Below, one piece after another: positions 15,596 through 32,784 of a DNA stretch of 53,155 nt. The notes under the pieces were generated by a model. The model searched no databases, was not told where the DNA came from, and worked only from the letters and a program-made list of their open reading frames with translations. Made by a program: the position numbers and the translations under genes. Each line of letters opens with the position of its first letter. Position 1 is the stretch's first letter. The stretch covers positions 1 through 53,155 of the forward strand of contig JAJYTA010000009.1 of assembly GCA_021793295.1 (NCBI GenBank). Reading direction: 5' to 3'. The DNA comes from Actinomycetes bacterium. Lineage in GTDB: Bacteria; Actinomycetota; Actinomycetes; Jiangellales; Jiangellaceae.

Positions 15596-16393
15596 ATGGC
15601 GGGGACAGTGCAAAGCGGCGATGCGACCAGTGAACGACAGCGAGCACGCGAACAGCGCGGCATCCGCAGCACTCAACGAGTCAAGAGCGAAGCCAACCGG
15701 CTGCCCGCTCCGCCGCGCCAGCGCCGCCCGGCGCTGGCCGCGCTGGCGGTCCTGCTGATCGTCGGCGGCGCGGCGGTGGCCGCGCTGCTGGCGCTGCGGG
15801 TGGACGAACGGGTCGAGGTGGTCCAGGCCGGTGCCACCATCCAAGCCGGCCAGCAGATCACCGCGGAGCACCTCACCACCACTCGTGTCGCCGCCGAAAG
15901 CGACCTGCTGGTGCCGGAGTCTCAGGCCGACCGCCTCATCGGCACCTACGCGTCGTCCCAGATCACCGAGGGCCAGCTCATCGACGTCACCATGCTCAAC
16001 GAGTCCGGCCCGATCGAAAGCGACGGCGTCGCGGTGGGTGCCTCGTTGGCCACCGGGTTCGCGCCGGCCGAGGGTCTGCGTGCCGGCGACATCGTCGACT
16101 TGGTCTCCATCGTCACCGGGCAGGGCGAGACCATCGTCGAAGACGCTCGCGTCGCGTCCGCGTCGACCACCGGCGGCAACGACGGTACGCAGGCGGGTGT
16201 GTCGGCGACATTCATCGTCGACCGCGAAGATGCCGCGCAGGTGGCCGGCGTTGCCGCCACCAACCAGTTGGTCGTCGTGCTGGTCGAGCGCGGTGTGCCG
16301 TTCGAGGACAACGCCGACGACGCCGACAACGCCGACGATGGCGGCGGCGACGACGCCGGGTCCGACGAGGAATCCGCTGAGGAACAGGGGTGA
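15596..16393 (+). CDS. SAF-domain protein, CpaB/RcpC-like (Tad pilus)
   Basis: A 265-residue membrane protein. A basic N-terminus (1-45) is followed by one transmembrane segment (ALAALAVLLIVGGAAVAALLAL, about 46-67) and an extracytoplasmic SAF domain (AGATIQAGQQITAEHL, ASSQITEGQLID). The C-terminal 25 residues are Asp/Ala-rich and disordered. SAF proteins of the CpaB class stabilise the Tad pilus machine and in Gram-positive loci open the operon, as here. The TadZ gene starts 4 bp after its stop. Start ATG 15596 has only a weak GGAGCGG upstream. Confidence 0.8.
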   Translation: MAGTVQSGDATSERQRAREQRGIRSTQRVKSEANRLPAPPRQRRPALAALAVLLIVGGAAVAALLALRVDERVEVVQAGATIQAGQQITAEHLTTTRVAAESDLLVPESQADRLIGTYASSQITEGQLIDVTMLNESGPIESDGVAVGASLATGFAPAEGLRAGDIVDLVSIVTGQGETIVEDARVASASTTGGNDGTQAGVSATFIVDREDAAQVAGVAATNQLVVVLVERGVPFEDNADDADNADDGGGDDAGSDEESAEEQG

Positions 16394-16397
16394 GCCG

Positions 16398-17177
16398 GTG
16401 CTGATCGCCTTTGTCTCGGCCAAGGGCTCGCCCGGCGTCACCACCACGGTGAACGCGCTGGGCGGAATCTGGCCTTCGGACGTCGTCGTGGCCGATTTCG
16501 ACCCGGCCGGAGGCGACTTCGCCTTGCGTCACCGCGGGGTGGACGGCGAGCCGTTGGACAACGACCGCGGCCTGCTGTCGCTCGCGGCCGCTGCCCGGCG
16601 CGGTACCGGCGAGGCCGATCTCGGCGAGCACGTCCAGGTCGCCTCGGGAGGGCTCCAGGTCATCCCTGGTGTCACCCGGCCGGAGCAGTTCACCGGTATC
16701 GGCGCTGCGTGGCCGGCCGTTGCCACCATGCTGGCCAACAGCCCCTTCGACGTGCTCGTCGACTGCGGGCGGGTGGTGCCCGGCACCCCGCTCCTGCCGG
16801 TGCTCACCGCCGCCGACGCCGTCATCTTCGTCGTCCGGCCCGGCATCGAGTATTACGCGCACCTGCGTGAACGGCTGCGCTGGCTGGCCGAGCCGCTGCA
16901 CATCGGCGAGCTCGGCAGCATCCCGCTCGGCATCGCGTTGATCGCCGGTAGCTCCGACACCTCTGCTCCTCGTGATCTCGACCGGTTGCTGCAGTACGAC
17001 GGGCACCAGGTCAGCGTCCTCGGCCGGATCGCCGAGGACCCCAAGGCCGCCGGCGCCCTGGCGGGGCGATGGAGCCGTCGCATCGACCGGTCGTTGTTGA
17101 TCCGGTCGGCGCGCGAGCTGGCCGAGTCCGCACGCGCGCTGGCCATGGCACGAACGCGGACTTCGGCAAGGAGCTGA
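16398..17177 (+). CDS. tadZ: TadZ/CpaE-like ParA-family protein
   Basis: A 259-residue MinD/ParA-like protein that in Tad systems localises the secretion machine. It starts VLIAFVSAKGSPGVTTT. The deviant Walker A signature Lys9 is present, but the second P-loop lysine is replaced by Val14, so ATP hydrolysis is doubtful. The switch region DFDPAGGDFALRH is clear. The GTG start at 16398 overlaps no upstream gene and gives a family-like N-terminus; the longer open frame upstream lies inside the SAF gene. tadA follows by 6 bp. Confidence 0.8.
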   Translation: MLIAFVSAKGSPGVTTTVNALGGIWPSDVVVADFDPAGGDFALRHRGVDGEPLDNDRGLLSLAAAARRGTGEADLGEHVQVASGGLQVIPGVTRPEQFTGIGAAWPAVATMLANSPFDVLVDCGRVVPGTPLLPVLTAADAVIFVVRPGIEYYAHLRERLRWLAEPLHIGELGSIPLGIALIAGSSDTSAPRDLDRLLQYDGHQVSVLGRIAEDPKAAGALAGRWSRRIDRSLLIRSARELAESARALAMARTRTSARS

Positions 17178-17183
17178 TGGCAC

Positions 17184-18485
17184 GTGGATCAGAACCTCAT
17201 CCGACGCCTGCGCGAGGAGGTCGCCGACACCCTGGCGCGCCAGCGGCGCGACGACGCCGCCAACGGCGTGCCGCCCATGACCGGCGAGGACGAGCGCCAG
17301 TTCGCCCGAGCCGTCATCGGGCGGGTGCTCGACTCCTACGCCCGCGAGGAGATCAGCGCCGGGCGAACCCCGCCGACGGCCGAAGAGGAAGAGGAGATCT
17401 CTTCGGGTATCCACGCCGCTCTGTTCGGTGTGGGTCGGCTGCAGCCGCTGCTCGACGACCTCGAGGTCGAGAACATCGACATCAACGGCTACGACAACGT
17501 GTTCATCCAGTACGCCGACGGGCGTGAGGTGAACGGCGCCCCGGTGGCCGAAAGCGACGACGAGCTGGTCGAACTCGTGCAGATCCTCGGCGCCTACTCC
17601 GGGCTGACCAGCCGTCCCTTCGACTCCGCCAACCCGCAGCTCGACATGCGCCTGCCCGACGGCAGCCGGCTCTCCGCGGTCATGGGCGTGTGCGCACGCC
17701 CGGCGGTGTCGATCCGGCGCGCCCGGCTGTCGCGGGTTCACCTCGACGAGCTGGTCTCCTACGGCTCAGTGACCGAGGAACTGGCGGCCTTCCTGTCCGC
17801 AGCCGTGGCCGCGCGGAAGAACATCATGATCGCCGGTGCCACGAACGCGGGCAAGACGACGCTGCTGCGCGCGCTGGCCAACGAGATCCCGCCGTCCGAG
17901 CGGCTCATCACCGTCGAGCGGGCCCTCGAGCTCGGGCTGGGGGAGTTCCCCGACCTGCACCCCAACGTCGTCGCGTTCGAGGAGCGGCTGCCCAACTCCG
18001 AGGGCCAAGGCGCCATCACCATGGCCGAGCTGGTCCGCCGCAGCTTGCGGATGAACCCCAGCCGGGTGATCGTCGGCGAGGTGCTCGGTGACGAGATCGT
18101 CACGATGCTCAACGCCATGAGCCAGGGCAACGACGGTTCACTGTCGACCATTCACGCCAACAGCTCCATCGAGGTGTTCAACCGCATCTCGACCTACGCC
18201 ATCCAATCGGTCGAACGACTGCCGGTGGACGCGACCATGATGTTGATCGCCGGTGCCATCGACTTCGTCGTGTTCGTCGAGAAACGCAACGAGTTCAACG
18301 AGGGCGGCAAGCTGCGCCGGTTCGTGTCGAGCATCCGGGAGATCAACGGTGTGGACGGCCGGGTGCTGTCCAGCGAGGTCTTCGCCGCGGGCCCGGACGG
18401 AGTCGCCGTGCCGGCGGCTCCGATCTCGTGCCTGGACGATCTCGTCGCCGTCGGGTACAACCCGCATTCCCAGGTGATCGCGTGA
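17184..18485 (+). CDS. tadA: TadA/CpaF secretion ATPase
   Basis: Hexameric ATPase of the type II/IV secretion superfamily that powers Tad pilus assembly. The N-terminal domain (1-150) precedes the catalytic domain: P-loop GATNAGKTT (218-226), Asp/Glu block RVIVGEVLGDE (about 294-304) and His box STIHANS (about 321-327). Length 433. AAGGAG at 17168-17173 supports GTG 17184. The stop overlaps the GTG of tadB. Confidence 0.93.
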   Translation: MDQNLIRRLREEVADTLARQRRDDAANGVPPMTGEDERQFARAVIGRVLDSYAREEISAGRTPPTAEEEEEISSGIHAALFGVGRLQPLLDDLEVENIDINGYDNVFIQYADGREVNGAPVAESDDELVELVQILGAYSGLTSRPFDSANPQLDMRLPDGSRLSAVMGVCARPAVSIRRARLSRVHLDELVSYGSVTEELAAFLSAAVAARKNIMIAGATNAGKTTLLRALANEIPPSERLITVERALELGLGEFPDLHPNVVAFEERLPNSEGQGAITMAELVRRSLRMNPSRVIVGEVLGDEIVTMLNAMSQGNDGSLSTIHANSSIEVFNRISTYAIQSVERLPVDATMMLIAGAIDFVVFVEKRNEFNEGGKLRRFVSSIREINGVDGRVLSSEVFAAGPDGVAVPAAPISCLDDLVAVGYNPHSQVIA

Positions 18486-19351
18486 GCCCGTCCATCCTGC
18501 TCATCACGCTGATCGGTGCCGGTATCGGCGCCGCGATCATGTTGTTGATCGTGGCGCTGCGGGGGACCGAACCCAAGCCGCCGCAGCCGGGGACCTCGGC
18601 GCGGTCGATGGTGGAGAAGCTCGGCCGGCAGACCGTTCTGGGCATCGGCGCGGGCGTCGCGACGCTGGCCGTGACGCGGTGGCCGGTGGCCGCCATCGGC
18701 GGCGGCTTGTTGGTGACGTTCTGGCCGGCGCTGTTCGGCGGGGCGAAGTCCGAACGTGACGCCATCGCGCGCCTGGACGGGCTGGCGTCGTGGACGGAGT
18801 CGCTGCGCGACACCATCGCCGGCGCGGTGGGCCTCGAGCAGGCGATCCCGGCCACGGTCTACGCCGCTTCGCCGTCGATCCAGCCGCAGCTGCGCCTGCT
18901 CGCCGACCGCCTGCGCATCCGGGTGCCGATGCCCGAGGCGCTGCAGAGCTTCGCTGACGACCTCGACGACGCCAGCGCCGACCTGGTCGTGTCAGCGCTG
19001 ATCCTCAACGCGCGGCTGCGCGGGCCGGGTCTGCGCCAGGTGTTGAGTTCGCTGGCCGACTCCGCACGCGCCGAGCTCGACATGCGCCAGCGCGTGCTGG
19101 CCGGGCGAGCGAGCACGCGGCGCTCGGTGCAGATCGTGGTGATCTTCAGCCTCGGGTTCATGCTCTTCCTCGCCGTGGTCAATCGGGACTACGTCGAGCC
19201 CTACTCCCAGCCGCTGGGTCAGATCGTGCTGGGAGTCATCATGGGCATCTTCGCGCTGGGCTTCATCTGGATGCGCCGGCTGGCGGCCTTCGAGACCCCG
19301 GCGCGGTTCCTGGTCACCGCAGAAGCCGAGGGTAGCGGGGTGCGGTCATGA
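18482..19351 (+). CDS. tadB: TadB inner-membrane platform protein
   Basis: Type II secretion F-domain protein of 289 residues. Hydrophobic segments occur at the N-terminus (ILLITLIGAGIGAAIMLLIVAL), near 60-80 and at the C-terminus (SLGFMLFLAVVNRDY, IVLGVIMGIFALGFIWM). A T2SSF core lies between (WTESLRDTIAGAVGLEQAI). GTG 18482 overlaps the tadA stop. Forms the pilus platform with TadC. Confidence 0.88.
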   Translation: MSPSILLITLIGAGIGAAIMLLIVALRGTEPKPPQPGTSARSMVEKLGRQTVLGIGAGVATLAVTRWPVAAIGGGLLVTFWPALFGGAKSERDAIARLDGLASWTESLRDTIAGAVGLEQAIPATVYAASPSIQPQLRLLADRLRIRVPMPEALQSFADDLDDASADLVVSALILNARLRGPGLRQVLSSLADSARAELDMRQRVLAGRASTRRSVQIVVIFSLGFMLFLAVVNRDYVEPYSQPLGQIVLGVIMGIFALGFIWMRRLAAFETPARFLVTAEAEGSGVRS

Positions 19352-20274
19352 CCCTGATCATGCTCGGCGGTGCCGTGGTCGGCCTCGGGCTGTTGCTGCT
19401 CGGGGTGCTGATCTCGGCTCCGCGGGTCAACCCGGCCGCGGCGTTGGCCAAACTGGACGCCGAACGCACCCGGGCGAAACACGAACGCCTGGTCGCGGTG
19501 TCGATCGACCCGCGCCAGGTGCGCGAGTCGCCGACGCTGCGCCGGTTCGGCGGGCAACTGCGCGAGACGCTGGAGAACGCGGGCATCAACCTAGGCTCGC
19601 TGCGCCGCGACCTGTCGCTGATGGGCCGCTCGCTCGAAGGACACTTGGCCACGACCGTGCTCACGGGGCTGATCGGGTTCATGACCCCGGTGGTCGTGTC
19701 GACGATCCTCACGGTCGGCGGCATCTCATTCGGCATCCCTGCCTCGGCCGTGCTTGGTTTCGTCCTGGCCCTGGTGTTCGCCGTCATCCCGACGCTCACC
19801 TTGCGGTCCAACGCTGCCGACCGGCGCCGCGACTTCCGCCATGTCGTCGGCTCCTTTCTCGACCTCGTCGCCATGAACCTCGCCGGTGGCCGGGGCGTTC
19901 CCGAAGCGCTGCAGGCGGCCTCGTCACTCAGCGACGGGTGGGGGATGGTCCGCATCCGCGACACGCTGCTCACCGCCCGGCTGCACGGAGTGACGCCGTG
20001 GGCCGCACTGGGCGAGCTCGGGGACGAGGTCGGCGTGGAGGAGTTGCGCGACCTCGCCGCGGCGCTGGCCCTGGTCGCCGAGGACGGCGCGAAGGTGCGT
20101 GAGTCGCTGGCAGCCCGTGCGGCGTCGATCCGCCGGCGGGAGCTGGCCGAGATCGAGGGCAAGGCCGGGCAGAAGTCGCAGTCGATGCTCGTGGCGCAGT
20201 TGCTGCTGTGTGTCGGCTTCCTGATCTTCCTCGTCTACCCGGCCCTGGTCGACGTCATGACCCAGAGCGGCTGA
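19348..20274 (+). CDS. tadC: TadC inner-membrane platform protein
   Basis: Second T2SSF-domain platform protein, 308 residues. N-terminal segment LIMLGGAVVGLGLLLLGVLI, a central pair of membrane segments (about 105-155), and a C-terminal segment LLLCVGFLIFLVYPALVDVM. The core FLDLVAMNLAGGRGVPEAL is typical. The ATG overlaps the tadB stop (ATGA). Confidence 0.88.
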   Translation: MTLIMLGGAVVGLGLLLLGVLISAPRVNPAAALAKLDAERTRAKHERLVAVSIDPRQVRESPTLRRFGGQLRETLENAGINLGSLRRDLSLMGRSLEGHLATTVLTGLIGFMTPVVVSTILTVGGISFGIPASAVLGFVLALVFAVIPTLTLRSNAADRRRDFRHVVGSFLDLVAMNLAGGRGVPEALQAASSLSDGWGMVRIRDTLLTARLHGVTPWAALGELGDEVGVEELRDLAAALALVAEDGAKVRESLAARAASIRRRELAEIEGKAGQKSQSMLVAQLLLCVGFLIFLVYPALVDVMTQSG

Positions 20275-20335: not shown

Positions 20336-20569
20336 ATGAGTATGAATCTCGATCTGAAACCCAACACCCCCCTGGGTTGGCTGATGCTGACCCTGACGGC
20401 CCACGTCGAACGGGCCCGGCGCGCCCCCGACCGTGGCGCCTCGGCCATCGAGTTCGTCATCATCACCGCCGTGCTGGTGGCCCTCGCCGCGGCCGTGGGG
20501 GTCGTGATCTATCGGCTCGTCAAGACCGAGGCCGACTCCATCGACATCCCGGACGCTCCCGGCGGCTGA
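20336..20569 (+). CDS. Flp-like pilin or pseudopilin
   Basis: A 77-residue protein with a class III (type IVb) prepilin pattern: a leader of 34 residues ending in Gly34, then ASAIEF with Glu at +5, then a hydrophobic helix (VIITAVLVALAAAVGVVIYRLV). It is the most likely major pilin by position after tadC. The leader is longer than usual for Flp. ATG 20336 has GGAG at 20328-20331. A CATAAT box at 20299-20304 could give it an extra promoter, as often seen for abundant pilins. No prepilin peptidase gene is in the window. Confidence 0.78.
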   Translation: MSMNLDLKPNTPLGWLMLTLTAHVERARRAPDRGASAIEFVIITAVLVALAAAVGVVIYRLVKTEADSIDIPDAPGG

Positions 20570-20583
20570 GCCTCGAGGTCACC

Positions 20584-20991
20584 ATGGTGCTGGAACGCCT
20601 CAGGCGGCTGCGATCACAACGCGGGGTCAGCTCGATCGAGCTCGTGCTGTACACCCCGCTCATGTTCTTGATCATTTTTGTGATCGTGCAGTTCACCCTG
20701 ACGTGGCACGGCAACCAGATCGCCGCGGCGGCCGCGCGTGAGGCCGCTCGGGAGGCCCGCATCGGCGGGGGTACCCCAGCGGCTTTGTCCGCTGCCGAGG
20801 CCCGCGGCCACGAGTACGCCGAGGTCGTGGGCAACGGCCATCTGGTCGACATCGAAGTCGATGCCGTCCAGGTGGGTGAGAACGTCCGAGTGACGGTGAG
20901 CGGGCGGGCCACCGAGATCGTCAACAACCTCGCTCCGCGGGTCTCACAGACCGTGGAAGGCCCGATCGAACAGTTCATCCCGGACCTATGA
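20584..20991 (+). CDS. tadE: TadE-like minor pilin
   Basis: A 135-residue pseudopilin: leader ending Gly14, then VSSIEL with Glu at +5, helix VLYTPLMFLIIFVIVQFTL, and a small extracellular domain (EVDAVQVGENVRVTVSG). This is the TadE-family form. ATG 20584 follows a GAGGT; the longer frame beginning at 20377 lies inside the pilin gene. The stop overlaps the next ATG. Confidence 0.85.
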   Translation: MVLERLRRLRSQRGVSSIELVLYTPLMFLIIFVIVQFTLTWHGNQIAAAAAREAAREARIGGGTPAALSAAEARGHEYAEVVGNGHLVDIEVDAVQVGENVRVTVSGRATEIVNNLAPRVSQTVEGPIEQFIPDL

Positions 20992-21413
20992 CACGTATCC
21001 AGCAGGTGGCGCGGACGCTGGGCCGGCAGCGCGGATCGATGGCCGTGGAGGTCGTGATCCTGGCGCCGGTCCTCGTCGCCGTCATGATGCTCGTCGTCGG
21101 CTTCGGCCGCTACGTCGACCGCTCCGCCGACGTCGATTCGATGGCCCGCGACGCGGTCCGGGCGGCATCGCTGCAGCGTGACTACGGATCGGCCAGTGCC
21201 GCCGCACAGGCGATCGTCGAGTCGTCGACGCCGCCGGGCGTGTCGTGTGGGCAGGCTTCGCTGGGCGGGACGTTCGCGGCCGGCGAGATCATCACGGTCG
21301 AGGTCAGCTGCAAGGTGTCGTTCGACGGTCTCGGCTTCATCGGGCTGCCGGGCTCGGCGACATTGACCGGGGAGAGCTCGGCGCCGCTGGACGTGCTGCG
21401 GAGAACATCGTGA
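20988..21413 (+). CDS. TadF/TadE-like minor pilin
   Basis: A 141-residue pseudopilin: leader ending Gly16, then SMAVEV with Glu at +5, helix VILAPVLVAVMMLVVGFGRYV, and an extracellular part with two cysteines (GVSCGQ and EVSCKV) able to form a disulfide. ATG overlaps the tadE stop. Its own stop overlaps the next GTG. Confidence 0.82.
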   Translation: MTRIQQVARTLGRQRGSMAVEVVILAPVLVAVMMLVVGFGRYVDRSADVDSMARDAVRAASLQRDYGSASAAAQAIVESSTPPGVSCGQASLGGTFAAGEIITVEVSCKVSFDGLGFIGLPGSATLTGESSAPLDVLRRTS

Positions 21414-21847
21414 TCCGCCGCACGCGCAGCGAGCGCGGCGCCATCAGCGCGATGCTCGTCACGCTGATCGTCATGCTGTTCGTGCTCGCCGGTCTGGTCG
21501 TCGATGGCGGATTCGCCATCAACGCGCGGCAGAAGATCTACGACGACGCCGAACAAGCCGCCCGCGCGGCGGCGAATCAGATCGACATCGAAACCTTGCG
21601 AGCCACCGGCGAGATCGTCATCCTCGAAGGGCAGGCCCGGCAGAAGGCCCAGGAGTACATGAGTGCTCGAGGCTATCCGCCGAGCCAGGTTCAGGTCTCG
21701 GTCGACGACGTTGCGGGCGAGGTGACCGTGGCTGCTCGGGACACCGTCAACACGACACTGCTGCAGCTGATCTTCATCTCGGACTTCGACGTCGAAGGCC
21801 AGGCCACCTCGCGCCCGGCCGTCGGCATCACGGGGGAGATGCCATGA
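21410..21847 (+). CDS. TadG-like (TadE/G family) membrane protein
   Basis: A 145-residue protein starting VIRRTRSERG-AISAM, with helix LVTLIVMLFVLAGLVVDGG followed by INARQKIYDDAEQAARAAANQ, the TadG-type pattern. Unlike its three neighbours it lacks the +5 glutamate (Met instead), so it may not be processed like the pilins. GTG 21410 overlaps the previous stop. It is shorter than proteobacterial TadG and has no von Willebrand domain. Confidence 0.78.
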   Translation: MIRRTRSERGAISAMLVTLIVMLFVLAGLVVDGGFAINARQKIYDDAEQAARAAANQIDIETLRATGEIVILEGQARQKAQEYMSARGYPPSQVQVSVDDVAGEVTVAARDTVNTTLLQLIFISDFDVEGQATSRPAVGITGEMP

Positions 21848-21917
21848 TCGGGAGACGTTCGCACCCGAACGATGCGCACTGCCAGCGATTGACCAGGAGC
21901 GGAACGGACAAGCCAGC

Positions 21918-24900
21918 ATGAGCGGTAACGAACGGGGCGCACGCAGTACCCGCCGGGCCGGGCGGCGCGCGAGTCAGGCGTCGCGCCAGGTACAACCGGT
22001 CAGCCCGGACGACGTCCAGCCGGTCGGGGCCGACGACCTGCGCCCGGCCGAGCCGTACGGTCCCGCACCGGAGGCCGGCGGCGTCATCGCGCCGACCGCG
22101 ACGCTGCGCGAGACCGGGCCGGAACGGTTCCAACGCCGCGAGCAGGTCGAGCCCGAACGCAACCTGTTGCAGGCGTTCGCGGCAGGTTTGGCACTGGCGG
22201 CGCTGATCGTCGGCGTCCCGGTGGCGCTGGTCATTCTCGGCGGATCGCCGCCGGTGCCCACGTCCTGGCCGACCCGCGACGATCTCACCGCCACCATCGG
22301 CACCGAGCAGCTCGTCGGCGTGCTGCTGTGGATCGTCTGGCTGGCGTGGTTGCAGTTCACCGTCTGCGTGCTGATCGAGATGCGCAGCGCCGTTCGTGGC
22401 GTCGGGCTGCCGAGTCGTGTGCCGCTGTCCGGGCCGACCCAACGCTTCGCCCGCGCTCTGGTCGCCTCGCTCCTGGTGGCCACGGCCACGGTCGGGCAGG
22501 CCAGCGCTGCGGCACCGTCGACGGTCGACGACTCGCCGACGGTCTCCACGTCGGCGAGCGCAGAGTACGACGGCACGGTGGAAGCGACGGTGCAGGAGTC
22601 GCAGGCGCCGGAAGCCGAGGTGGAAGCCGACCAGGGCGAGGTCGAGTACCGGCTGGGTGACATGGTCCTCGGGCCCGAAGAGGGCAAGGAGCTGGTCGGG
22701 CACAGGGTGTATGTCGTCCAGCCGCCCGAAGGCCGCTATCACGACAACCTGTGGGACATCGCCGAGCGCACGCTCGGTGACGGCCGGCGCTATCAGGAGA
22801 TCTTCGAGCTCAACCGGGGCCGGGTGCAGCCGGACGGACACGAGCTTTCGCTGGCTCGCCTGATCTATCCGAACTGGCTGCTGATCGTGCCCAACGACGC
22901 CACCGGCGTCGACGTCGTCACCGTCGAGAAGCCCGCTCCGGCGGAAACCCCGCCCACGTCCGAGACCCCGGTGCCGCCGGGTGAAGAGGGCACGGGCGGC
23001 GAGTCCGGCGAGGCCGGCCATGACGTCGGAGCCGACGCTTTCAGTCAGTTCGCCGCGGTGGGCGAGGCCGAAGCCGTCTCCACGAACCCGCATGCCGGGC
23101 TGATCGACGCCGGCCTACTGGCCGCCGGTGTGCTCGGAGCGATCGAGGTGCTGCGGCGTCGCCGACGTACCCCCGAGCCCGGAGACGACGAACTCGAGGC
23201 CGAGGTCGCCCTGCGCATCGGCGCCGACCCCGACCGCGCCCGCTGGCTCGACCACGCGCTGCGCAGTCTGGCGGCCGGCTGCCAGCAGGAGCGCAGCCCG
23301 CTGCCGCCGGTCTACGCCGCGGTCGTCGACAACACCTCGGTGGAGCTTCTGCTCGCGCCGGCGCGCACCGAGGCGCCGGCGCCCTGGTCGGTCACCGACG
23401 AAGGCCGCCGTTGGCGTCTCGAGCGGTCCGAGGTCAAGATCGGCGACGAACTGCGCGGCAACGTGCTGGCTCCGTACCCGGGCCTGGTGTCCCTGGGCCA
23501 CAGCGGCGAGCGTGACGTGCTCATCGATCTCGAGGCCGCCGGCGGACCCATCAGCGTCGACGGAGACCCGGAAGCGACCATCGAGGTCGTCACCGCGCTC
23601 GCCGTCGAGCTGGCCACGAACCAGTGGTCCGACCACCTCCGGGTCACCGCCGACGGCTTGCCTGAGTCGCTGAGCGCATTCGACTCCGGGCGGCTGCGGC
23701 TCGTCGACGGCGTCGAGGATCTGTTGCCGGAACTGGTGGCGCGCCGCTCGGACCGTCTCGGCACCGATGTCCTGACCGGACGGGTACGGCCCGGGGGTGC
23801 CGGTAGTTGGATGCCGGAGTACCTGGTGCTGGGCACCCCGCCGTCCGGTGAGCTGGCCGAGCAGCTGGTGGCGTTGACCGACGCCGCGGGCCGCTCGCCG
23901 CTCGGCGTGATCTGCGCCGGCGACGTGCCCGGCGCGCGGTGGCGGATCTCCGTGGATGCATCCGGGACCCTCGAGCTGCCCGCGCTGGGCCTGAGCGTGC
24001 GTGCCAACCGCCTGCCGTGGCGCAGTGTCGAGGCCGTGGCCGGGCTCGTCGATCCGGATCGCGGCGGCGATCCGGGTGCCGGCACACTCAACGAGGCGTG
24101 GCTGACCGAGCAGCGCCCGGAGGTGCCCCAGGTCCGCTCGGTCTCCAGCGAGGCCGACCTCGCCATGGCGCCGGTGCGCGTATACATCCTGGGGCCCGTG
24201 GCCGTCCAGGCCGCCACCGAGATCGACGAGGAACGCCGGGCGCTGGCGACCGAGATCGTCGTGTACCTCGCGCTGCATCGTGAGGGGGTGCACCCGACGG
24301 TGCTCGCCTCGGCGATCTGGCCGCGTGGCGTCACGGCGGCGGTGCGCGAGGCGACCTTCGCCCGGGTCCGCGACTGGCTCGGTGTCGATCGGTCCGGGTC
24401 GCCCTACCTGCTCAGTACCGAAGACGGGCGGATGCGCCTCAGCGATGCTGTGGCGGTGGACTGGGAGGTCGTGTGTAGTCTGCTCAGCCAGGCGCGCCAG
24501 GTTCGCCAGCCCGCGGAAGAGGCAGATCTGCTACGCCGGGCCCTGCGGGTCGCGCGCGGTCCCGTGCTCAGCGAGCGCCCTGCGGGCCGCTACTCGTGGA
24601 TCGCCCGCGCGCGCGTCGAGCGGATCGCGTCGGATCTGTTGGTCGACGCCGCCCACCGGTTGTCGACCATCACCCGTGAGGGCGGTGATCCGGCTACCGG
24701 CGCTGCGGCGGCACGAGCCGGGCTGCGGGTCCGGCCGGCCGAGCAATTGTTGTGGCGCGATCTGCTGCACGCCCAGCACAGCGTGGACGGGCGCGGGGGA
24801 GTCATCGCGGTCGAGAGCGAGATGAGCCAGACCTTAACCGAGATCGGCAATATCCAACTCGCACCCGAAACACTGGCATTGCTCGACGAGTTGTTGCCGA

Positions 24901-24932
24901 GTCCGGGCGGTCGCCACCGTGATCTTGCATGA
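21918..24932 (+). CDS. Membrane protein with LysM domain and C-terminal SARP-type BTAD domain
   Basis: A 1004-residue fusion. Residues 1-75 are a basic disordered tail. Membrane segments follow at about 83-107, 131-150 and 178-197. An extracytoplasmic part carries a LysM-like domain (about 264-325; DNLWDIAERTLGD, YQEIFELNRG, YPNWLLIVP). A fourth membrane segment (about 391-410) returns to the cytoplasm. The C-terminal region (about 752-990) resembles a winged-helix plus bacterial transcriptional activation domain: YILGPVAVQ, LHREGVHPTVLASAIWP, FARVRDWLG, then helical repeats ending in RVRPAEQLLWRDLLHAQH. It could sense the cell wall and control the Tad genes, or act as a scaffold; both are inference. 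It starts 70 bp after the TadG-like gene. Confidence 0.82.
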   Translation: MSGNERGARSTRRAGRRASQASRQVQPVSPDDVQPVGADDLRPAEPYGPAPEAGGVIAPTATLRETGPERFQRREQVEPERNLLQAFAAGLALAALIVGVPVALVILGGSPPVPTSWPTRDDLTATIGTEQLVGVLLWIVWLAWLQFTVCVLIEMRSAVRGVGLPSRVPLSGPTQRFARALVASLLVATATVGQASAAAPSTVDDSPTVSTSASAEYDGTVEATVQESQAPEAEVEADQGEVEYRLGDMVLGPEEGKELVGHRVYVVQPPEGRYHDNLWDIAERTLGDGRRYQEIFELNRGRVQPDGHELSLARLIYPNWLLIVPNDATGVDVVTVEKPAPAETPPTSETPVPPGEEGTGGESGEAGHDVGADAFSQFAAVGEAEAVSTNPHAGLIDAGLLAAGVLGAIEVLRRRRRTPEPGDDELEAEVALRIGADPDRARWLDHALRSLAAGCQQERSPLPPVYAAVVDNTSVELLLAPARTEAPAPWSVTDEGRRWRLERSEVKIGDELRGNVLAPYPGLVSLGHSGERDVLIDLEAAGGPISVDGDPEATIEVVTALAVELATNQWSDHLRVTADGLPESLSAFDSGRLRLVDGVEDLLPELVARRSDRLGTDVLTGRVRPGGAGSWMPEYLVLGTPPSGELAEQLVALTDAAGRSPLGVICAGDVPGARWRISVDASGTLELPALGLSVRANRLPWRSVEAVAGLVDPDRGGDPGAGTLNEAWLTEQRPEVPQVRSVSSEADLAMAPVRVYILGPVAVQAATEIDEERRALATEIVVYLALHREGVHPTVLASAIWPRGVTAAVREATFARVRDWLGVDRSGSPYLLSTEDGRMRLSDAVAVDWEVVCSLLSQARQVRQPAEEADLLRRALRVARGPVLSERPAGRYSWIARARVERIASDLLVDAAHRLSTITREGGDPATGAAAARAGLRVRPAEQLLWRDLLHAQHSVDGRGGVIAVESEMSQTLTEIGNIQLAPETLALLDELLPSPGGRHRDLA

Positions 24933-25017: not shown

Positions 25018-25045
25018 TTGCCCATCTGGACATGGCAGGTAGGCT
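25018..25045 (+). promoter_or_regulatory. Probable promoter of the WXG100 gene
   Basis: TTGCCC (25018-25023), a 16-bp spacer and TAGGCT (25040-25045) form a vegetative-type promoter, with a start near 25052 and a leader of about 52 nt. A stronger -35 match (TTGACG at 25001) is too far from this -10. Confidence 0.4.
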
Positions 25046-25103: not shown

Positions 25104-25376
25104 ATGGGTGTTGGTGCAGAACTAAGCACGCTTGCAGAGCTTCACAAGACGTTCACCAACAAGGCCGAGGACGCCGAGTCCATCAAGACCGAGGTTGACA
25201 ACGGTCTGTCCAGCGCGGTCTGGACCGGTCGTTATTCCGAGGACTTCCGCAACGCGTGGGAAGACTACAAGAAGAACCTCGACACGCTGCGTGACGCTCT
25301 GAACGGAGCGGCTGATGACGTGCGGACGAACCACAACAACATCGCTGAAGCGACGGGTGAGCCCGACCGCATCTGA
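25104..25376 (+). CDS. WXG100 family protein (EsxA-like)
   Basis: A 90-residue helical hairpin protein with the WXG turn at Trp40-Thr-Gly42 (SAVWTGRYSEDF). WXG100 proteins are secreted as dimers by type VII systems and contact the EccC/EssC ATPase. ATG 25104 is preceded by AGGGAG at 25091-25096. No C-terminal YxxxD/E signal is evident. A rho-independent terminator follows, and the EssC-like gene starts 178 bp downstream. Confidence 0.9.
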   Translation: MGVGAELSTLAELHKTFTNKAEDAESIKTEVDNGLSSAVWTGRYSEDFRNAWEDYKKNLDTLRDALNGAADDVRTNHNNIAEATGEPDRI

Positions 25377-25396
25377 GCGCTGCAGGTCATTTGCTG

Positions 25397-25440
25397 GTGG
25401 CCCACATCCTGTCACGTCGGGTGTGGGCCACTTTGTTGTG
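25397..25440 (+). terminator. Terminator after the WXG100 gene
   Basis: Perfect 10-bp stem, GTGGCCCACA with TGTGGGCCAC, followed by TTTGTTGTG. It lies 20 bp after the WXG100 stop. It probably lets the small substrate be expressed at a higher level than the large ATPase. A TAAGAT box at 25504-25509 with TGAGCC 17 bp upstream may start the ATPase transcript. Confidence 0.82.
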
Positions 25441-25554
25441 TCAGGTCACCGATTCTGTGACATCACGCAGGGCCACTGAATGAGCCATGACACCGCCTGA
25501 CGGTAAGATGCCGACCGGGAAGGTGTGATCACGCGCTAGGTCTGGGGCGAGTAC

Positions 25555-28500
25555 GTGCGGCTGTTGTTGAGTGCCACCTCTTCAGTCGACGGCGAGGTCG
25601 TCGACCTCGCGATCGACTGCGAAGAGGACGCCACGGTCGCCGACATCGCCCGGCAACTGGCCGTGCACGTCGCCCCCACCGAGCCCCAGGTGGTCCGCAC
25701 GGGTGGACGCCATCTCGGGGTGGTGGGCGGAGCTCAGCCGGTGCTGCAAGACGACATGGCACTGCCACCGACGCTCTTTCTCGGGCAGACCCCGCTCGAT
25801 CCCTCCACCCCGGTGGCCGAGTCGGAGCTGCGCCACGGCGCGCTGGTCGGTGTCGGCGTCGCCTTGCCCGACGTGTTCGCCGAGCGCACCGGGGTGGCTC
25901 AGGTCCGCATCGTCTCCGGGCCGGGCTCGGGCCACGTCCACACCTTGTCCCCGGGCAGCCACGAGGTCGGATCCGCCGCGGGCTGCACGGTCCGGCTGCG
26001 CGGCGACGACGCTCCCGACGTCGCGCTACGCCTCGACGTCGCCCTCGACGGCACCGTCACCGCCGTTCCCGACCCCTCCCTCGTCGGCCTCACGCTGACC
26101 TCGATCGTGCGCGAGCGGCCGCTCGAAGGCCCCATCGTCATCCCGAAGCTCGAGGAGGACACCGGGCAGTCCCGGAAGCGCCGCAAGCGCAAGCGCCGGC
26201 ACAAGAAGCAGATGGAGGAGCTGGCCCGGCTCAAGCACCCGCACCTGACCATTGACCCCGAGGCCGAGCGTCCGTTCGTCCACCTCGACCGGGTTGCGCT
26301 CGATGCCCCGGTCGTGTGGACGCCGGGCAGCGCGCTCGTCGTCGGCGACACCGTGCTCGACCTCGCCCTGCCCGACGAGCCCGACGCGTCGTTGTCGCCG
26401 AGCCCGGGCGGGGCGACGCTGGATTACAACCGGCCGCCGCGGCTGCTGCCGCCGCCTCGCCAAACCGACTTCCGGCTGCCCAACGAGCCGCAGAAGCCGG
26501 AGAAGACGCCGCTGCCGTGGGCTATCGCCATGGCGCCGATGATCATGGGCGGCGCGATGTTCTACTTCACGCGGTCGCCGTTCAGCCTGATGATCATGAT
26601 CTTGTCGCCGATGATGATGATCGCGCGGTACAAGAGCTCCAAGACGCAGAGCCAGAACCGGTACGCCGAGCAGATGAAGAAGTACGTCGAGCGGATGCGC
26701 AACATCGAGAACCAGGCGTACCAGGCCCTGGTCTCCGAGCGCGCCGCTCGCCGGCGCGACATGCCCGACCCGGCCGCGGTGCTGCTGTTCGCTACCGGCC
26801 CGCGGGCCCGGCTCTGGGAGCGACGACGTACCGACCCGGACTGGATGCACGTGCGGGTGGGCACTGCCGACGTCCCCAGCGAGGTCTCGCTGACCGACCC
26901 GGCCCGCGAAGACCACGAGCGGGTGCTGCGTTGGACCGCGCCCAACGTCCCCGTGGGCGTACCACTGGAAAATGCTGGTGTCACCGGTATCGCCGGCGAC
27001 GATCCTGTTCGGCGGCAGGTGGCCGGCTGGATGGTGGCACAGCTCGCGGCGCTGCACAGCCCGGCTGATCTCGAGATCATCGTGCTGTCCGACACTGACG
27101 GCGGCGAAGCGTGGAACTGGGTGCGCTGGCTGCCGCACACGCGCCGGAGCGAAGAGTCCGAGGTGATCGCCGGGGTCGGCGCCGACGACGAGACCACGGG
27201 CCGGCGAGTCGCCGAGCTCATGGCCATCTTGGAACGCCGCAAGGCCGTCGTGGCCGATCGCGGCGGCGGTATCAGCGCCGCGCGCGAGGTGAACTTTCCG
27301 CCGCTGCTGGTCGTCCTGGACGGTGCCCGGCGCATCAGGCTGATCCCCGGGTTGATCTCGCTGCTGCGTGAAGGTCCCCGGCTGGGCATGTTCTTCGTGT
27401 GCATCGACGCTGATGAGCGCTTGCTCCCCGAGGAATGCCGGGCCGTCGTGGCCATCGGGGCCGAGTCCACCACAGTCCGGCGTAGCGGCGAGCCCACCAT
27501 CGAGGGGGTCTGCCCCGACCTCGTCTCGCCCGCCTGGTGCGAACGGATGGCCCGCGCGCTGGCGCCGGTCAAGGACGTCAGCTCCGAAGACCTCTCGTCG
27601 TCGCTTCCCACATCCAGCCGCCTGCTCGACGTCCTCAAGCTCGACCCGCCGACGGGGGAGGCCATCGAGGGCTGGTGGGCCAGGATCGGGCGCACGACGA
27701 AGTCGGTCATCGGCGAAGGCATGGACGGCCCGTTCTCCGTCGACATCCGCGCCGACGGCCCGCACGGCCTGGTGGCCGGTACCACCGGTTCGGGTAAGTC
27801 CGAGCTCCTGCAGACGATGATCGCCTCGCTGGCCGTGGCCAACCGACCGGACGAGATGACGTTCGTCCTGGTCGACTACAAGGGTGGCGCGGCCTTCAAG
27901 GACTGCAACAATCTGCCGCACACCGTGGGCATGGTGACCGACCTCGACGGTCACCTCACCACGCGAGCTCTCGAGAGCCTCGCCGCCGAGCTGCATCGCC
28001 GCGAACATCAGTTGGCCGACTCCGGCACCAAGGACATCGAGGACTACCTGGCGGCCAAGGGCCCCGACGACGAGCCGATGCCGCGGCTGATGATCGTCAT
28101 CGACGAGTTCGCCGCGCTGGTGGCTGAGTTGCCCGACTTCGTCAAGGGTCTCGTCGACATCGCCCGGCGTGGCCGGTCGCTGGGTGTGCACCTCATCCTC
28201 GCGACGCAGCGCCCCGCCGGTGTCGTCAGCGCAGAGATCAAGTCCAACACCAACCTGCGCATCGCGCTGCGTGTCACTGACGGCAACGACAGTCAGGACG
28301 TCATCGAGGCCAAGGACGCCGCCGAGATCTCCAAGTCCACCCCGGGGCGCGCCTATGCCCGGCTGGGCCATTCGTCGCTGATCGCGTTCCAGTCCGCCCG
28401 GGTCGGGGGCCGGCCCAACGCTCCGGATGCCGTCGCCGCCGTCGACCTGCGCCGGCTGTCCTGGGAGAGTCTCGGTCAGGTGCCGCCCCGGCCCGACGAC

Positions 28501-30216
28501 GATGACGACGACGAAGACGTCAGCATCCCCACCGACCTGGAGAGCGTGGTCGCCGCCATCAACGAGGCGGCCGAACGCACCGGCATCCATGCGCCGCCGC
28601 CACCGTGGCTGCCGCCGTTGGACGACGTCGTGACGCTCGACGAGGTGTTGGCCGACCCGGCCGCCACCGTGGAGTCCGACCGCGAGATCCGGCTCCCGTT
28701 CGGCATCGTCGACGTGCCCAAGGAGCAGCGGCGCACGGTGGCCGTCTACGACTTGTCCGGTGGGGGACACCTGTCGATCGTCGGTTCTCCGCGGAGCGGA
28801 CGTTCCAGCGTGCTGCGCGCCTTCGCCGGCGTCGTGGGGCGCACGATGTCGCCCAGCGACATCCACCTCTACGGCGTCGACTGCGGCAACAATGCGCTGC
28901 TGTCCATGGTGGGGCTGCCGCACACGGGCGCCGTCGTCAGCCGGGACCAGCCGGATCGTCTGTCGCGCCTGTCCACGCGTATCCGTGCCGAGATCGGTCG
29001 GCGCCAGCAGATCCTGGCCGAGCAGGGCTACTCCGACCTCAGCGAGCAGCGAGCCGGTGCGGCACGTCCGGAGGACCGGCTGCCGTACATCCTCGTGCTG
29101 TTCGATCGCTGGGAGGGCTTCATCCAGTCGTTCGAGAACTTCGACAGCGGGCGGCTGGTCGATCAGTGGATGCAGATCCTGCAGGAGGGTCCCGGCGTCG
29201 GCGTCAAGGTGATCATGGCCTCGGATCGTACCGCCCTGGTCGGGCGGCTCTCGGCGCTGCTCGAAGACAAGATGATGCTGCGGATGACCGACAACGCCGA
29301 TTTCAGCTCCATCGGCAAGACACCTAAGTCGGTTCCCGAGCACATGCCTCCGGGGCGGGCGTTCCGAGCCGAGGGGTTGCTCGAGACGCAGGTCGCATTG
29401 TTGACCGCCGACGCCGAGGGCACCGCTCAAGTCGCCGCGCTACAAGAGATCGGCCGGCAGGCGAGCGAACAGTACGCTCACGTGCCCCGGTCGCAGCGTC
29501 CTTTCCGCGTCGATCCGCTGCCCACTCGCATCTCCTACGCCGACGCGTTGGCGCTGGCCGAGCGCGAGTTGGTCCCCACCGAGGTTCCGGTGGCCGTCGG
29601 CGGCGACACGCTGACGTTGCGCACGCTCGACGCCATCGATCACGGTCCGGGGTTCCTGATCCTCGGCCCGCGTCGATCCGGACGCAGCACCACGTTGCTG
29701 ACCATGGCCACGTCAGCGCTCGACCGTGGGTGGCGGATGCTGATCATCACCCCGCGGCGCAGTCCGCTGGCGTCGCTGGCTGGGCGCGACGGCGTCGAGG
29801 AGGTCATCGATCTCGAACGCGAGAAGGACGAGGTCACCGCGTTGTTCGAGAAGATGGTCCCCGAGAAGGGTGGGTCTCCCACCGCGGTGGTCATCGACGA
29901 CATGGAGCTGATGGGGGTCGACGGCTGGCTCGTCGACCTGCTGACCAAACACGTCCCGAAGCTGCGCGACACCGGCAGCGCGGTCATTGCTGCGGCTACG
30001 ACCGACGACCTGGGCAGCAGTTACCGCGGACCTGCGGCGGTGCTGAAGAAGTCGCGCTCGGGCATCCTTCTCTCCCCGGGCGCGCCGGCCGACGGCGACC
30101 ACTTCGGTGTGAAATTGCCGAGGTCGATGACCGGTGGCATGCCTCCTGGCCGTGGCTTGTACGTGGCGGCGGGCCAGTGGCAGCTCGTCCAGGTCCCGGA
30201 GACCACGGTGTCGTGA
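25555..30216 (+). CDS. Type VII secretion ATPase, EssC/EccC-like (FtsK/SpoIIIE family)
   Basis: A 1553-residue membrane ATPase that drives WXG100 substrate export. The N-terminal 290 residues hold two FHA-like beta regions (second near 115-180, HEVGSAAGCTVRL) and a basic linker (RKRRKRKRRHKK). Two membrane segments lie at about 322-355. Three FtsK-type ATPase modules follow. D1 has a canonical P-loop GTTGSGKSE (about 742-750) and Walker B LMIVIDEF. D2 (GSPRSGRSS, about 1076) and D3 (GPRRSGRST, about 1370) replace the catalytic lysine by arginine, so only D1 looks active. The FHA-like N-terminus resembles Firmicutes EssC more than mycobacterial EccC. No eccB, eccD, eccE or mycP is in the window. 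The start is GTG 25555; no strong ribosome site was seen. Confidence 0.9.
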   Translation: MRLLLSATSSVDGEVVDLAIDCEEDATVADIARQLAVHVAPTEPQVVRTGGRHLGVVGGAQPVLQDDMALPPTLFLGQTPLDPSTPVAESELRHGALVGVGVALPDVFAERTGVAQVRIVSGPGSGHVHTLSPGSHEVGSAAGCTVRLRGDDAPDVALRLDVALDGTVTAVPDPSLVGLTLTSIVRERPLEGPIVIPKLEEDTGQSRKRRKRKRRHKKQMEELARLKHPHLTIDPEAERPFVHLDRVALDAPVVWTPGSALVVGDTVLDLALPDEPDASLSPSPGGATLDYNRPPRLLPPPRQTDFRLPNEPQKPEKTPLPWAIAMAPMIMGGAMFYFTRSPFSLMIMILSPMMMIARYKSSKTQSQNRYAEQMKKYVERMRNIENQAYQALVSERAARRRDMPDPAAVLLFATGPRARLWERRRTDPDWMHVRVGTADVPSEVSLTDPAREDHERVLRWTAPNVPVGVPLENAGVTGIAGDDPVRRQVAGWMVAQLAALHSPADLEIIVLSDTDGGEAWNWVRWLPHTRRSEESEVIAGVGADDETTGRRVAELMAILERRKAVVADRGGGISAAREVNFPPLLVVLDGARRIRLIPGLISLLREGPRLGMFFVCIDADERLLPEECRAVVAIGAESTTVRRSGEPTIEGVCPDLVSPAWCERMARALAPVKDVSSEDLSSSLPTSSRLLDVLKLDPPTGEAIEGWWARIGRTTKSVIGEGMDGPFSVDIRADGPHGLVAGTTGSGKSELLQTMIASLAVANRPDEMTFVLVDYKGGAAFKDCNNLPHTVGMVTDLDGHLTTRALESLAAELHRREHQLADSGTKDIEDYLAAKGPDDEPMPRLMIVIDEFAALVAELPDFVKGLVDIARRGRSLGVHLILATQRPAGVVSAEIKSNTNLRIALRVTDGNDSQDVIEAKDAAEISKSTPGRAYARLGHSSLIAFQSARVGGRPNAPDAVAAVDLRRLSWESLGQVPPRPDDDDDDEDVSIPTDLESVVAAINEAAERTGIHAPPPPWLPPLDDVVTLDEVLADPAATVESDREIRLPFGIVDVPKEQRRTVAVYDLSGGGHLSIVGSPRSGRSSVLRAFAGVVGRTMSPSDIHLYGVDCGNNALLSMVGLPHTGAVVSRDQPDRLSRLSTRIRAEIGRRQQILAEQGYSDLSEQRAGAARPEDRLPYILVLFDRWEGFIQSFENFDSGRLVDQWMQILQEGPGVGVKVIMASDRTALVGRLSALLEDKMMLRMTDNADFSSIGKTPKSVPEHMPPGRAFRAEGLLETQVALLTADAEGTAQVAALQEIGRQASEQYAHVPRSQRPFRVDPLPTRISYADALALAERELVPTEVPVAVGGDTLTLRTLDAIDHGPGFLILGPRRSGRSTTLLTMATSALDRGWRMLIITPRRSPLASLAGRDGVEEVIDLEREKDEVTALFEKMVPEKGGSPTAVVIDDMELMGVDGWLVDLLTKHVPKLRDTGSAVIAAATTDDLGSSYRGPAAVLKKSRSGILLSPGAPADGDHFGVKLPRSMTGGMPPGRGLYVAAGQWQLVQVPETTVS

Positions 30217-30693: not shown

Positions 30694-32784
30694 GTGGCCA
30701 AGAAGGCTGAGATCGTCATCGCGGAGATGCGCAATCTGGTCACTGGCGTCGAGAATGGCATCGAGAACCTCACCGAGGCCAAGTCGGCCCTGACCTCGGC
30801 ACTGGACAGGTTCAACATCGATCACACCCTCGGGGCCAATGTGCAGAAGGCCATCGACTGGGGCGAGACCGAGTTGCCCGGGGTCCGGCGGCGGTTGTCG
30901 CTGGCCGAGGCGCTCGAGGGCAGCGAGCCCGAGTGGGAGCCTGGCACGGCGAAGATCGACGAGAGCCAGATCTCCGACGTTCCGCCGGGCGAAGCCGAGC
31001 GGAACGGTGAGGAAGCGGCGCTGGCGCTGTTGGACAGTCCCGGAGAGATCACGCCGGAACTGGCCGCCGAGATCGAAGAGAACATGAACGACCCGTACTT
31101 CGCTGCGGGTTTCGCCAAGAACGCCGATCCTGAGCAGCTTGCGGCGGCGCTGGACACGCTGGATGCGTTCGTCGAGGCCACCGAGATCCCGATGGAGCTG
31201 CGCAACCGGATGGTCGAGGCCGTCGGGGCCACCATCGGTACCGCCACGCGCAACGTCGGCGATCTCGCGATGCCCGACGACTACCAGCAGCAGTGGACGT
31301 CGGCCATCACCGCGGATTCGTACGACCAGGGTGGTGACGCGCCGCAAAACCAGGCGCAGTATCTGGCCTTGCTGATGCAGCAGGGCACGTACGATCGCCA
31401 GTTCCTCAATTACGTCGGCGCCACGATCTACGACTACGAGACCAGCGGCGATGGCCCGGTGTGGGGTCCCAAGAGCAATCACATGGACCCCGTGCTCGAC
31501 ACCAACGGCGAGAAAGTCATCGACGTGATGGCCGCCTATATGGGGGCGCTGGAGAACAACCCGCTGGCCGCCCAGGACTTCTTCAGCCGCGGCGGCACGG
31601 TCGAGGTCGACGTCGAGGGCGAGAAAGTCCAGATGAACGAGCGCCTCGCGTACATGATCCAGGACCGTACGTGGGACTCGTTCGCCGACCCGAGCAACGG
31701 CGGCCAGTTCGGCGCTGCACTCGAAGCGGCGACCACGTACTTCCGCAACGACGAAGAAACCGGCCGGATCTCAGCCGAGATCGCCTCTCAGACATTCGCG
31801 CTGATCGGCGACCGTACTGGTGACGATGCCAGCGGTGGATTCCTCGGTATCGGGGCGAGCGACGGCTGGCAGATGTGGCGTGGGATGCGCGAAAACGTCG
31901 CCAACATCATGGCGAGTTACGGACCCGACATGTTGCGCATTGCTCGTACTGAGCAATCCGACGGCATCGGCCCGCCGTGGACCGTCGGTCCGGAAACCGA
32001 GATCCTCGGTGATGGCGCGCCGTACGGCGCGGCCATGGACCCAGAGTTGGTCCAGCAAATTCTCGGCACGTACGGTAAGGACGGCCAAGATGAGTACCTC
32101 AACATCGTCCTCGCCGGGGTAGGCGCCGCGTCACAGTGGCGGATGGGGACTGCGCTGGAAGGCGCGCTCGACGACGGCACACCGCCGCCGGCGCCGGTCG
32201 CCATCTTGCAAGGTCAGAACGTTCCGCAGCTGACGACAGCCACCAACGAGATGGCCGCTGCTTTCGGCTGGGTGATCAACGGCGCCTACCACGGGGCGCT
32301 GGACGAAGAGGAGCTCGAAGAGAAGCAGGCCGAGCTGCGCTCTCAGGTCTTCGGTGCCATGACCTCGATCCCTGGGGTGGCGCCGGCCGGCAAGTGGTCG
32401 GAGTTCGCCTTCGACCAGATCACTTCGCAGATCGAGGACAAGATCGGCGAGACCGACCCCGACGCCAGCGGCCAATTCTCCGAGCTGTCAGCGAATGAGA
32501 AGGAACAGCTGGAGCAGATGATCCTCAATCAGATGCTCGCCAATGGCTACTTCGACGAGGAGTACATCGACGAAGCCAACGGGGGAGAAGGCGGCACCCG
32601 CTACGAGGGTCCGCCGGACGACGCGATCGTTCCGGGCAGTGATCCGCCGCAGTTCGACTTCGACAGCCCGGCGTACAACGAGTGGCTGCGGACGAAGTTC
32701 CCGATGGATGACTTCTTGAACAGCAACGTGTACCCGCCGTTCAACGAGCACCTCGAAGCCGGCTTGGACCTGGCGGGCGGATGA
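30694..32784 (+). CDS. Large uncharacterised protein, candidate type VII substrate
   Basis: A 696-residue acidic protein without signal peptide or membrane segment. Residues 1-60 are a helical region (AEMRNLVTGVENGIENLTEAKSAL is its character). Shared blocks with the protein at 35638-36789 are ELPGVRRRLSLAEALEG (60-76), NDPYFAAGF (132-140) and GDLAMPDDY (189-197). The rest is helical with DVMAAYMGALENNPLAAQDFF and similar, recalling uncharacterised actinobacterial families found beside WXG100 genes (possibly DUF6571; unverified). No nuclease or other toxin motif was recognised. The stop overlaps the ATG of the lipoprotein gene, indicating an operon. Confidence 0.75.
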   Translation: MAKKAEIVIAEMRNLVTGVENGIENLTEAKSALTSALDRFNIDHTLGANVQKAIDWGETELPGVRRRLSLAEALEGSEPEWEPGTAKIDESQISDVPPGEAERNGEEAALALLDSPGEITPELAAEIEENMNDPYFAAGFAKNADPEQLAAALDTLDAFVEATEIPMELRNRMVEAVGATIGTATRNVGDLAMPDDYQQQWTSAITADSYDQGGDAPQNQAQYLALLMQQGTYDRQFLNYVGATIYDYETSGDGPVWGPKSNHMDPVLDTNGEKVIDVMAAYMGALENNPLAAQDFFSRGGTVEVDVEGEKVQMNERLAYMIQDRTWDSFADPSNGGQFGAALEAATTYFRNDEETGRISAEIASQTFALIGDRTGDDASGGFLGIGASDGWQMWRGMRENVANIMASYGPDMLRIARTEQSDGIGPPWTVGPETEILGDGAPYGAAMDPELVQQILGTYGKDGQDEYLNIVLAGVGAASQWRMGTALEGALDDGTPPPAPVAILQGQNVPQLTTATNEMAAAFGWVINGAYHGALDEEELEEKQAELRSQVFGAMTSIPGVAPAGKWSEFAFDQITSQIEDKIGETDPDASGQFSELSANEKEQLEQMILNQMLANGYFDEEYIDEANGGEGGTRYEGPPDDAIVPGSDPPQFDFDSPAYNEWLRTKFPMDDFLNSNVYPPFNEHLEAGLDLAGG

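Follow-up and report, generated by a model that had tools for sequence, protein, structure and literature searches.

In actinobacteria, Tad pili function in adhesion and in the uptake of DNA. The locus described here raises the question of how Tad machines whose operon has no recognised secretin or pilotin gene are fixed in a thick cell wall, for which the conserved last gene of the operon is a concrete candidate. This gene lies in a stretch of 53,155 nucleotides (the window) of a 4.67-Mb actinobacterial assembly in 320 contigs. An earlier note had described its product as one protein combining a LysM domain, membrane segments and a SARP-type BTAD domain, and this description holds, as the reading frame, four predicted membrane segments, a LysM-like unit and a predicted AfsR/EmbR fold were all found. 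The same note read the protein as a possible cell-wall sensor controlling the Tad genes, the type VII genes or both, and whether it is a regulator or a structural part is the question followed below.

The gene and its place in the tad operon

The gene is a single uninterrupted open reading frame with an ATG start, encoding 1004 amino acids. Its closest named relatives, from Haloactinopolyspora and Jiangella, are 75–78% identical to the protein, while those from Cellulomonas, Nocardioides and Actinomyces are about 37–53% identical, and since relatives align across most of the length, we consider it a real gene. By the same identities, the source genome falls within or close to the Jiangellaceae. 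It is the last gene of the window tad operon, with WXG100 and EssC-type genes directly after it, exactly the place that the earlier note had given it. The preceding genes of the operon are as follows:

15596–16393, + strand: SAF-domain protein (RcpC/CpaB-like), first tad gene (Pfam SAF, E 3.5e-6)
16390–17177, + strand: TadZ/CpaE-like protein, start approximate (position, conserved synteny and custom profile; no significant Pfam or NCBIfam match)
17184–18485, + strand: TadA ATPase (Pfam T2SSE, NCBIfam TIGR03819)
18428–19351, + strand: TadB (Pfam T2SSF)
19348–20274, + strand: TadC (Pfam T2SSF)
20377–20991, + strand: TadE-like pilin (Pfam TadE)
20988–21413, + strand: TadE-like pilin (Pfam TadE)
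21410–21847, + strand: TadG-like protein, start approximate (Pfam Tad PF13400)

No secretin or pilotin gene was recognised in this operon. The position of the LysM-BTAD gene is strongly conserved across many genera: in 49 of the 51 close loci (the named loci), the nearest tad gene on the same strand is no more than 700 bp upstream, and tadA, tadB and tadC all precede the gene on its strand in 46 of these 51 and in 18 of 20 distant loci; most exceptions among the close loci are short contigs. Three Tad sets of the source genome include such a gene, namely the window copy and those on contigs C45 and C62 (loci L087 and L088), and the C45 copy is one of the two distant exceptions, with tad genes that are adjacent but divergent on the opposite strand. 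The plasmid loci that were opened (from Streptomyces, Rhodococcus and Cutibacterium) are full tad operons with the LysM-BTAD gene last, which indicates that Tad sets travel on plasmids. Divergence of the LysM-BTAD protein also follows that of TadA, with a distance correlation of 0.84 over 63 loci (permutation maximum 0.32), a value confounded by shared species history. TadE, which is present in 223 of 296 genomes, was too common to inform.

The start of the LysM-BTAD gene often overlaps the stop codon of tadG, which suggests translational coupling. In the window, a frame of 25 codons (21844–21921) lies between the two genes, with an ATGA overlap at the tadG stop and another at the LysM gene start; in Jiangella, tadG and the LysM gene overlap directly in the same stretch, and the window frame may reflect coupling or chance.

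Membrane topology and the LysM-like domain

The protein was modelled with AlphaFold2 from 37 natural relatives as input, with pLDDT of at least 90 in 537 residues; a sequence-profile search of the PDB with the same protein returned no significant match. Its parts are listed here:

21918–24932, + strand: membrane protein of 1004 amino acids with LysM, FtsK-like, winged-helix and BTAD parts, in this order (open reading frame, relatives, model)
22164–22241, + strand: TM1, residues 83–108 (hydropathy; helix in model)
22302–22394, + strand: TM2, residues 129–159 (hydropathy; model)
22428–22508, + strand: TM3, residues 171–197, preceded by an Arg-rich loop predicted inside (hydropathy; model)
22698–22907, + strand: LysM-like domain, residues 261–330, predicted outside (NCBIfam, relatives, model, Pfam)
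23097–23162, + strand: TM4, residues 394–415, followed by an Arg-rich stretch predicted inside (hydropathy; model)
23184–24050, + strand: predicted degenerate FtsK/EccC-type ATPase fold, residues 423–711 (Foldseek; Pfam FtsK_SpoIIIE in 2 of 21 distant relatives)
23550–23585, + strand: site of the Walker A loop, residues 545–556, without the motif (alignment of homologues)
24174–24467, + strand: predicted OmpR/SARP-type winged helix, residues 753–850 (Foldseek with AfsR and EmbR; alignment)
24336–24380, + strand: equivalent of the recognition helix, residues 807–821, approximately neutral in the close clade (alignment, tree)
24459–24893, + strand: BTAD, all-helical and TPR-like, residues 848–992 (Pfam; Foldseek)

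Hydropathy and the model agree on the four membrane segments, with approximate boundaries, and together with the charge distribution they predict an N-terminus inside, LysM outside and a C-terminus inside. The loop between TM2 and TM3 holds on average 3.4 Lys/Arg against 1.0 Asp/Glu, and the Arg-rich stretch directly after TM4 is also on the inner side, while the TM1–TM2 loop and the stretches flanking LysM are acidic. Ahead of TM4 there is a long disordered linker (pLDDT below 50 for residues 341–388). The anchored arrangement proposed in the earlier note is therefore the one predicted, with BTAD on the inner side. Its remark that SARP regulators are normally soluble also stands, yet Tad loci of actinobacteria widely encode the membrane form, which is already annotated there as a LysM protein.

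Sequence support for LysM is weak in the window protein and firm across the wider family. Pfam LysM reached only E 0.054 on the segment, below the cut-off, and the NCBIfam LysM protein PRK11198 gave E 6e-4 over residues 275–303, while Pfam LysM matches 15 of 21 distant relatives (best E 1.5e-11). The model contains a LysM-like strand-helix-helix-strand unit at residues ~263–324, and the motif YHDNLWDIAE in this region is unchanged across 37 relatives.

The middle domain

The earlier note had missed an alpha/beta domain at residues ~423–711, which the predicted topology places in the cytosol. In a Foldseek search of the PDB with the full model it matches FtsK (2ius) and EccC, and when modelled alone it matches 2ius (E 1.1e-6), TcpA (5e-6) and EccC (3e-5), although these are fold-level matches of a predicted model, with high rmsd and low sequence identity in the FtsK alignments. 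Among the distant relatives that match Pfam FtsK_SpoIIIE, the best E value is 0.0011. The domain thus resembles the FtsK motor domain, EccC and EssC in its fold, but unlike them it has no Walker A motif: G-x4-GK[S/T] occurs in none of 57 homologues, and the P-loop position reads ISVDGDPEATIE, with a single invariant glycine. As modelled, this would be an ATPase fold unable to bind ATP in the usual way. Descent of the domain from the neighbouring EssC gene is not claimed, as the comparison of its profile with the EssC family was not significant (P 0.61).

The SARP module

At the C-terminus, the model predicts an OmpR-type winged helix followed by BTAD, as in SARP activators, since this part matches AfsR (8k60, 8hvr; E 1e-8 to 1e-7) and EmbR (2ff4; E 2.4e-6) in the Foldseek search of the PDB. 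Profile searches recovered the domains proposed in the earlier note only in part. Pfam BTAD scores 18.7 bits in the full protein, just under the cut-off of 22.1, and 23.2 bits when the C-terminal segment is searched alone (10 of 21 distant relatives match, best E 3.2e-25); LysM is weak, as given above, and Pfam Trans_reg_C has no match in the window protein, where the AfsR fold match stands in its place.

The contacts of AfsR to DNA and RNA polymerase are known from cryo-EM (PMC10936776), and we compared the equivalent positions in three sets: the close family (37 sequences), a distant Tad-linked group (20) and ordinary SARPs (36, among them AfsR, EmbR and SARPs from the source genome and its relatives). 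The AfsR sequence is numbered as in that paper. Position equivalence rests on the sequence alignment, which is least certain for Q48, where helix 1 begins, and within a shortened loop; the counts come from related sequences and do not represent independent events. Net charge of the recognition helix is +2.78 (sd 0.75) in the ordinary SARPs, −0.03 (sd 0.85) in the close family and +2.0 (sd 1.67) in the distant set. Of the DNA contacts, the equivalent of R87 is Asp/Glu in 29 of 37 close members, that of T88 is Ala in 26, that of S91 is Ala, Glu or Asp in 36 and that of K95 is Asp/Glu in 24, with the Q48 and P79 contacts also lost. The same holds for RNA polymerase contacts, where D71 is replaced by Ala, Gly or Ser in all 37 and E76 by Arg in 25, while ordinary SARPs have Asp/Glu at these positions in 31 and 22 of 36, respectively. 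Furthermore, the helix-turn-helix loop is 2–3 residues shorter in the close family. Kept are R92, a base contact (36/37), R94 (29/37) and W74 (37/37), and with the two arginines kept, proteins of the close clade may still bind DNA.

In a tree calculated without the helix columns (a quick tree, with long branches), all 24 rows of a clade with SH-aLRT 100 have a neutral helix (−2 to +1); outside this clade, most rows lie between +1 and +5. Within the source genome, the helix of the window copy is approximately neutral (+1), against +4 for each of the copies on C45 and C62. Most AfsR-type contacts to DNA and RNA polymerase thus appear to be lost in the clade of the window protein, judging from the alignment, and this weakens the transcription-sensor reading of the earlier note. 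A lack of DNA-binding residues is largely seen in the close clade and not in the family as a whole; with a mean of +2.0 in the distant Tad-linked set, DNA binding is conceivable for some relatives, and the wider family may contain real regulators.

The type VII neighbours

In most of the close loci (L036–L086), an EssC-type ATPase, usually with WXG100, stands beside tad; in the window these genes occupy 25104–30216. An EssC-type gene, whose side and strand vary, is present in the fetched flank of 44 of the 51 close loci, and all 20 distant loci lack one, so the constant partner is Tad and not type VII. In addition, WXG100 is preceded by a promoter-like site at 25018–25045 (TTGCCC-16-TAGGCT), which aligns with a conserved TTGCAA-16-TAGAAT in Jiangella and is probably a separate promoter of the type VII genes, as far as sequence can tell, and WXG100 probably starts at 25104 rather than at 25032. 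Of the two systems that the earlier note supposed to be controlled, the Tad link is accordingly strong and conserved, and the type VII link is not supported.

An EssC-like ATPase may nevertheless work with Tad. In Micrococcus luteus, Mlut_07490 of the FtsK/SpoIIIE family adjoins tad-1, and its point mutation lowered transformation at least 1000-fold (PMC8467076); the Walker A GTTGSGKS is common to Mlut_07490 and the window EssC. Further downstream, the window encodes a 696-amino-acid protein (30694–32784) that begins with a helical, WXG-like part and lacks a Pfam match, a possible type VII substrate with related genes in 18 close loci, and its gene is followed by a lipoprotein-like gene (32781–33377).

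Function of the LysM-BTAD protein

Its place in the operon, its topology, the degenerate ATPase fold and the loss of DNA contacts together make us lean towards the view that the LysM-BTAD protein is a Tad accessory, i.e., that it is anchored in the wall and acts as a scaffold or in the control of assembly, with a SARP module put to a new use. Its membrane anchor would consist of the three N-terminal helices and the fourth helix, and the LysM-like domain, which lies between TM3 and TM4, probably binds peptidoglycan outside, while two degenerate modules would lie inside (the FtsK/EccC-like ATPase fold, and the SARP module with its winged helix and TPR-like BTAD). In the close clade, the SARP module would most probably dock proteins, not promoter DNA, e.g., the Tad ATPase, the TadZ-like positioning protein or the TadB/TadC platform. 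By analogy with FimV/HubP, the protein would then link the pilus machinery to the cell wall and govern the place or the time of its assembly. A possible counterpoint is that regulators, too, can sit in an operon under their own control.

It seems rather unlikely that the window protein is a membrane-tethered one-component regulator, whose LysM domain would sense the wall or the growing pilus and whose SARP module would bind promoters (of tad or other genes), as in CadC/ToxR. Although the SARP fold is intact, the C-terminus is cytosolic and the R92 and R94 equivalents are kept, the K95, R87, S91 and T88 equivalents are acidic or Ala in the close clade, both RNA polymerase contacts are gone, and the recognition helix is neutral behind a shortened loop. 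A quick look by eye at aligned sequences of eight Jiangellaceae also gave no obvious conserved SARP-like direct repeat upstream of the tad operon (the sigma-70 consensus promoter scan, with no sites and 0.6 expected by chance, was uninformative). The regulator reading is likelier for paralogues whose helix is basic, as distant Tad-linked relatives, two of them in the source genome, carry helices such as NTAISKLRRWL.

Proteolysis near TM4 could also free the cytosolic part to act elsewhere, perhaps with partner DNA-binding proteins, and a single TM4 connecting the outer and inner parts behind a long disordered linker would suit this; with DNA-contact residues lost and no protease gene identified among the named neighbours, we regard such regulated release as very improbable. 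There is hardly more than a slight chance that the protein is a partner or regulator of the type VII-like system, with its ATPase-fold domain docking on EssC, since the nearness of EssC-type genes ends with the close loci, the EccC-like fold is not accompanied by a significant profile match, and WXG100 follows a promoter-like site of its own.

Within the Tad accessory reading, we tentatively suggest a narrower proposal, which could well be wrong: in one Gram-positive Tad clade the SARP module was converted to a non-DNA-binding part of a wall-anchored pilus hub that also carries a dead FtsK/EccC-like ATPase domain, with paralogues in the same genome that maybe still bind DNA. The contrast between clades with a neutral and a basic recognition helix makes the choice between regulator and structural part directly testable.

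Relation to known proteins

CadC and ToxR combine a winged helix inside and a sensor outside in a single polypeptide. The window protein is predicted to have its winged helix on the inner side of the membrane and a putative sensor outside, but in reversed domain order and with a degenerate DNA-binding surface from which contact residues are mostly lost. AfsR and EmbR share with it the fold of OmpR-type winged helix plus BTAD; unlike in these regulators, the module is C-terminal and membrane-tethered, and most of the AfsR contacts (PMC10936776) are not conserved in the close clade.

By architecture only, the nearest functional parallel would be FimV/HubP, with LysM outside, a membrane segment and a TPR or TPR-like helical domain inside; FimV of Pseudomonas putida binds peptidoglycan via LysM (PMC12918733), and some FimV/HubP proteins serve type IV pili. 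These proteins are gammaproteobacterial, whereas the window protein has four membrane helices and additional ATPase-fold and winged-helix domains, and neither the FimV core nor its C-terminal family was matched in it (NCBIfam, E up to 1; Pfam).

No functional study of LysM-BTAD Tad proteins was found in the open-licence literature on the subject or its neighbours, and as far as our literature searches show, four points are new, namely the topology, the hidden ATPase fold, an operon position that is nearly universal, and the loss of DNA-contact residues in one clade. LysM and BTAD in one protein were tabulated already in 2013, without function, for PAGK_2369 of a Cutibacterium acnes plasmid Tad locus (PMC3666418, Table 2; NC_021086.1), where the protein is named 'TadB'. 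As in the window, its gene closes the tad locus and immediately follows a tadG-related gene, but the protein is distant in sequence and was reached via a source-genome paralogue (34% identity over 24% of the query). More than 100 plasmid records annotate relatives only as LysM protein, which hides the ATPase-like fold and the SARP module; in all, relatives are annotated on ~165–225 actinobacterial plasmid records, mostly of Streptomyces and Rhodococcus.
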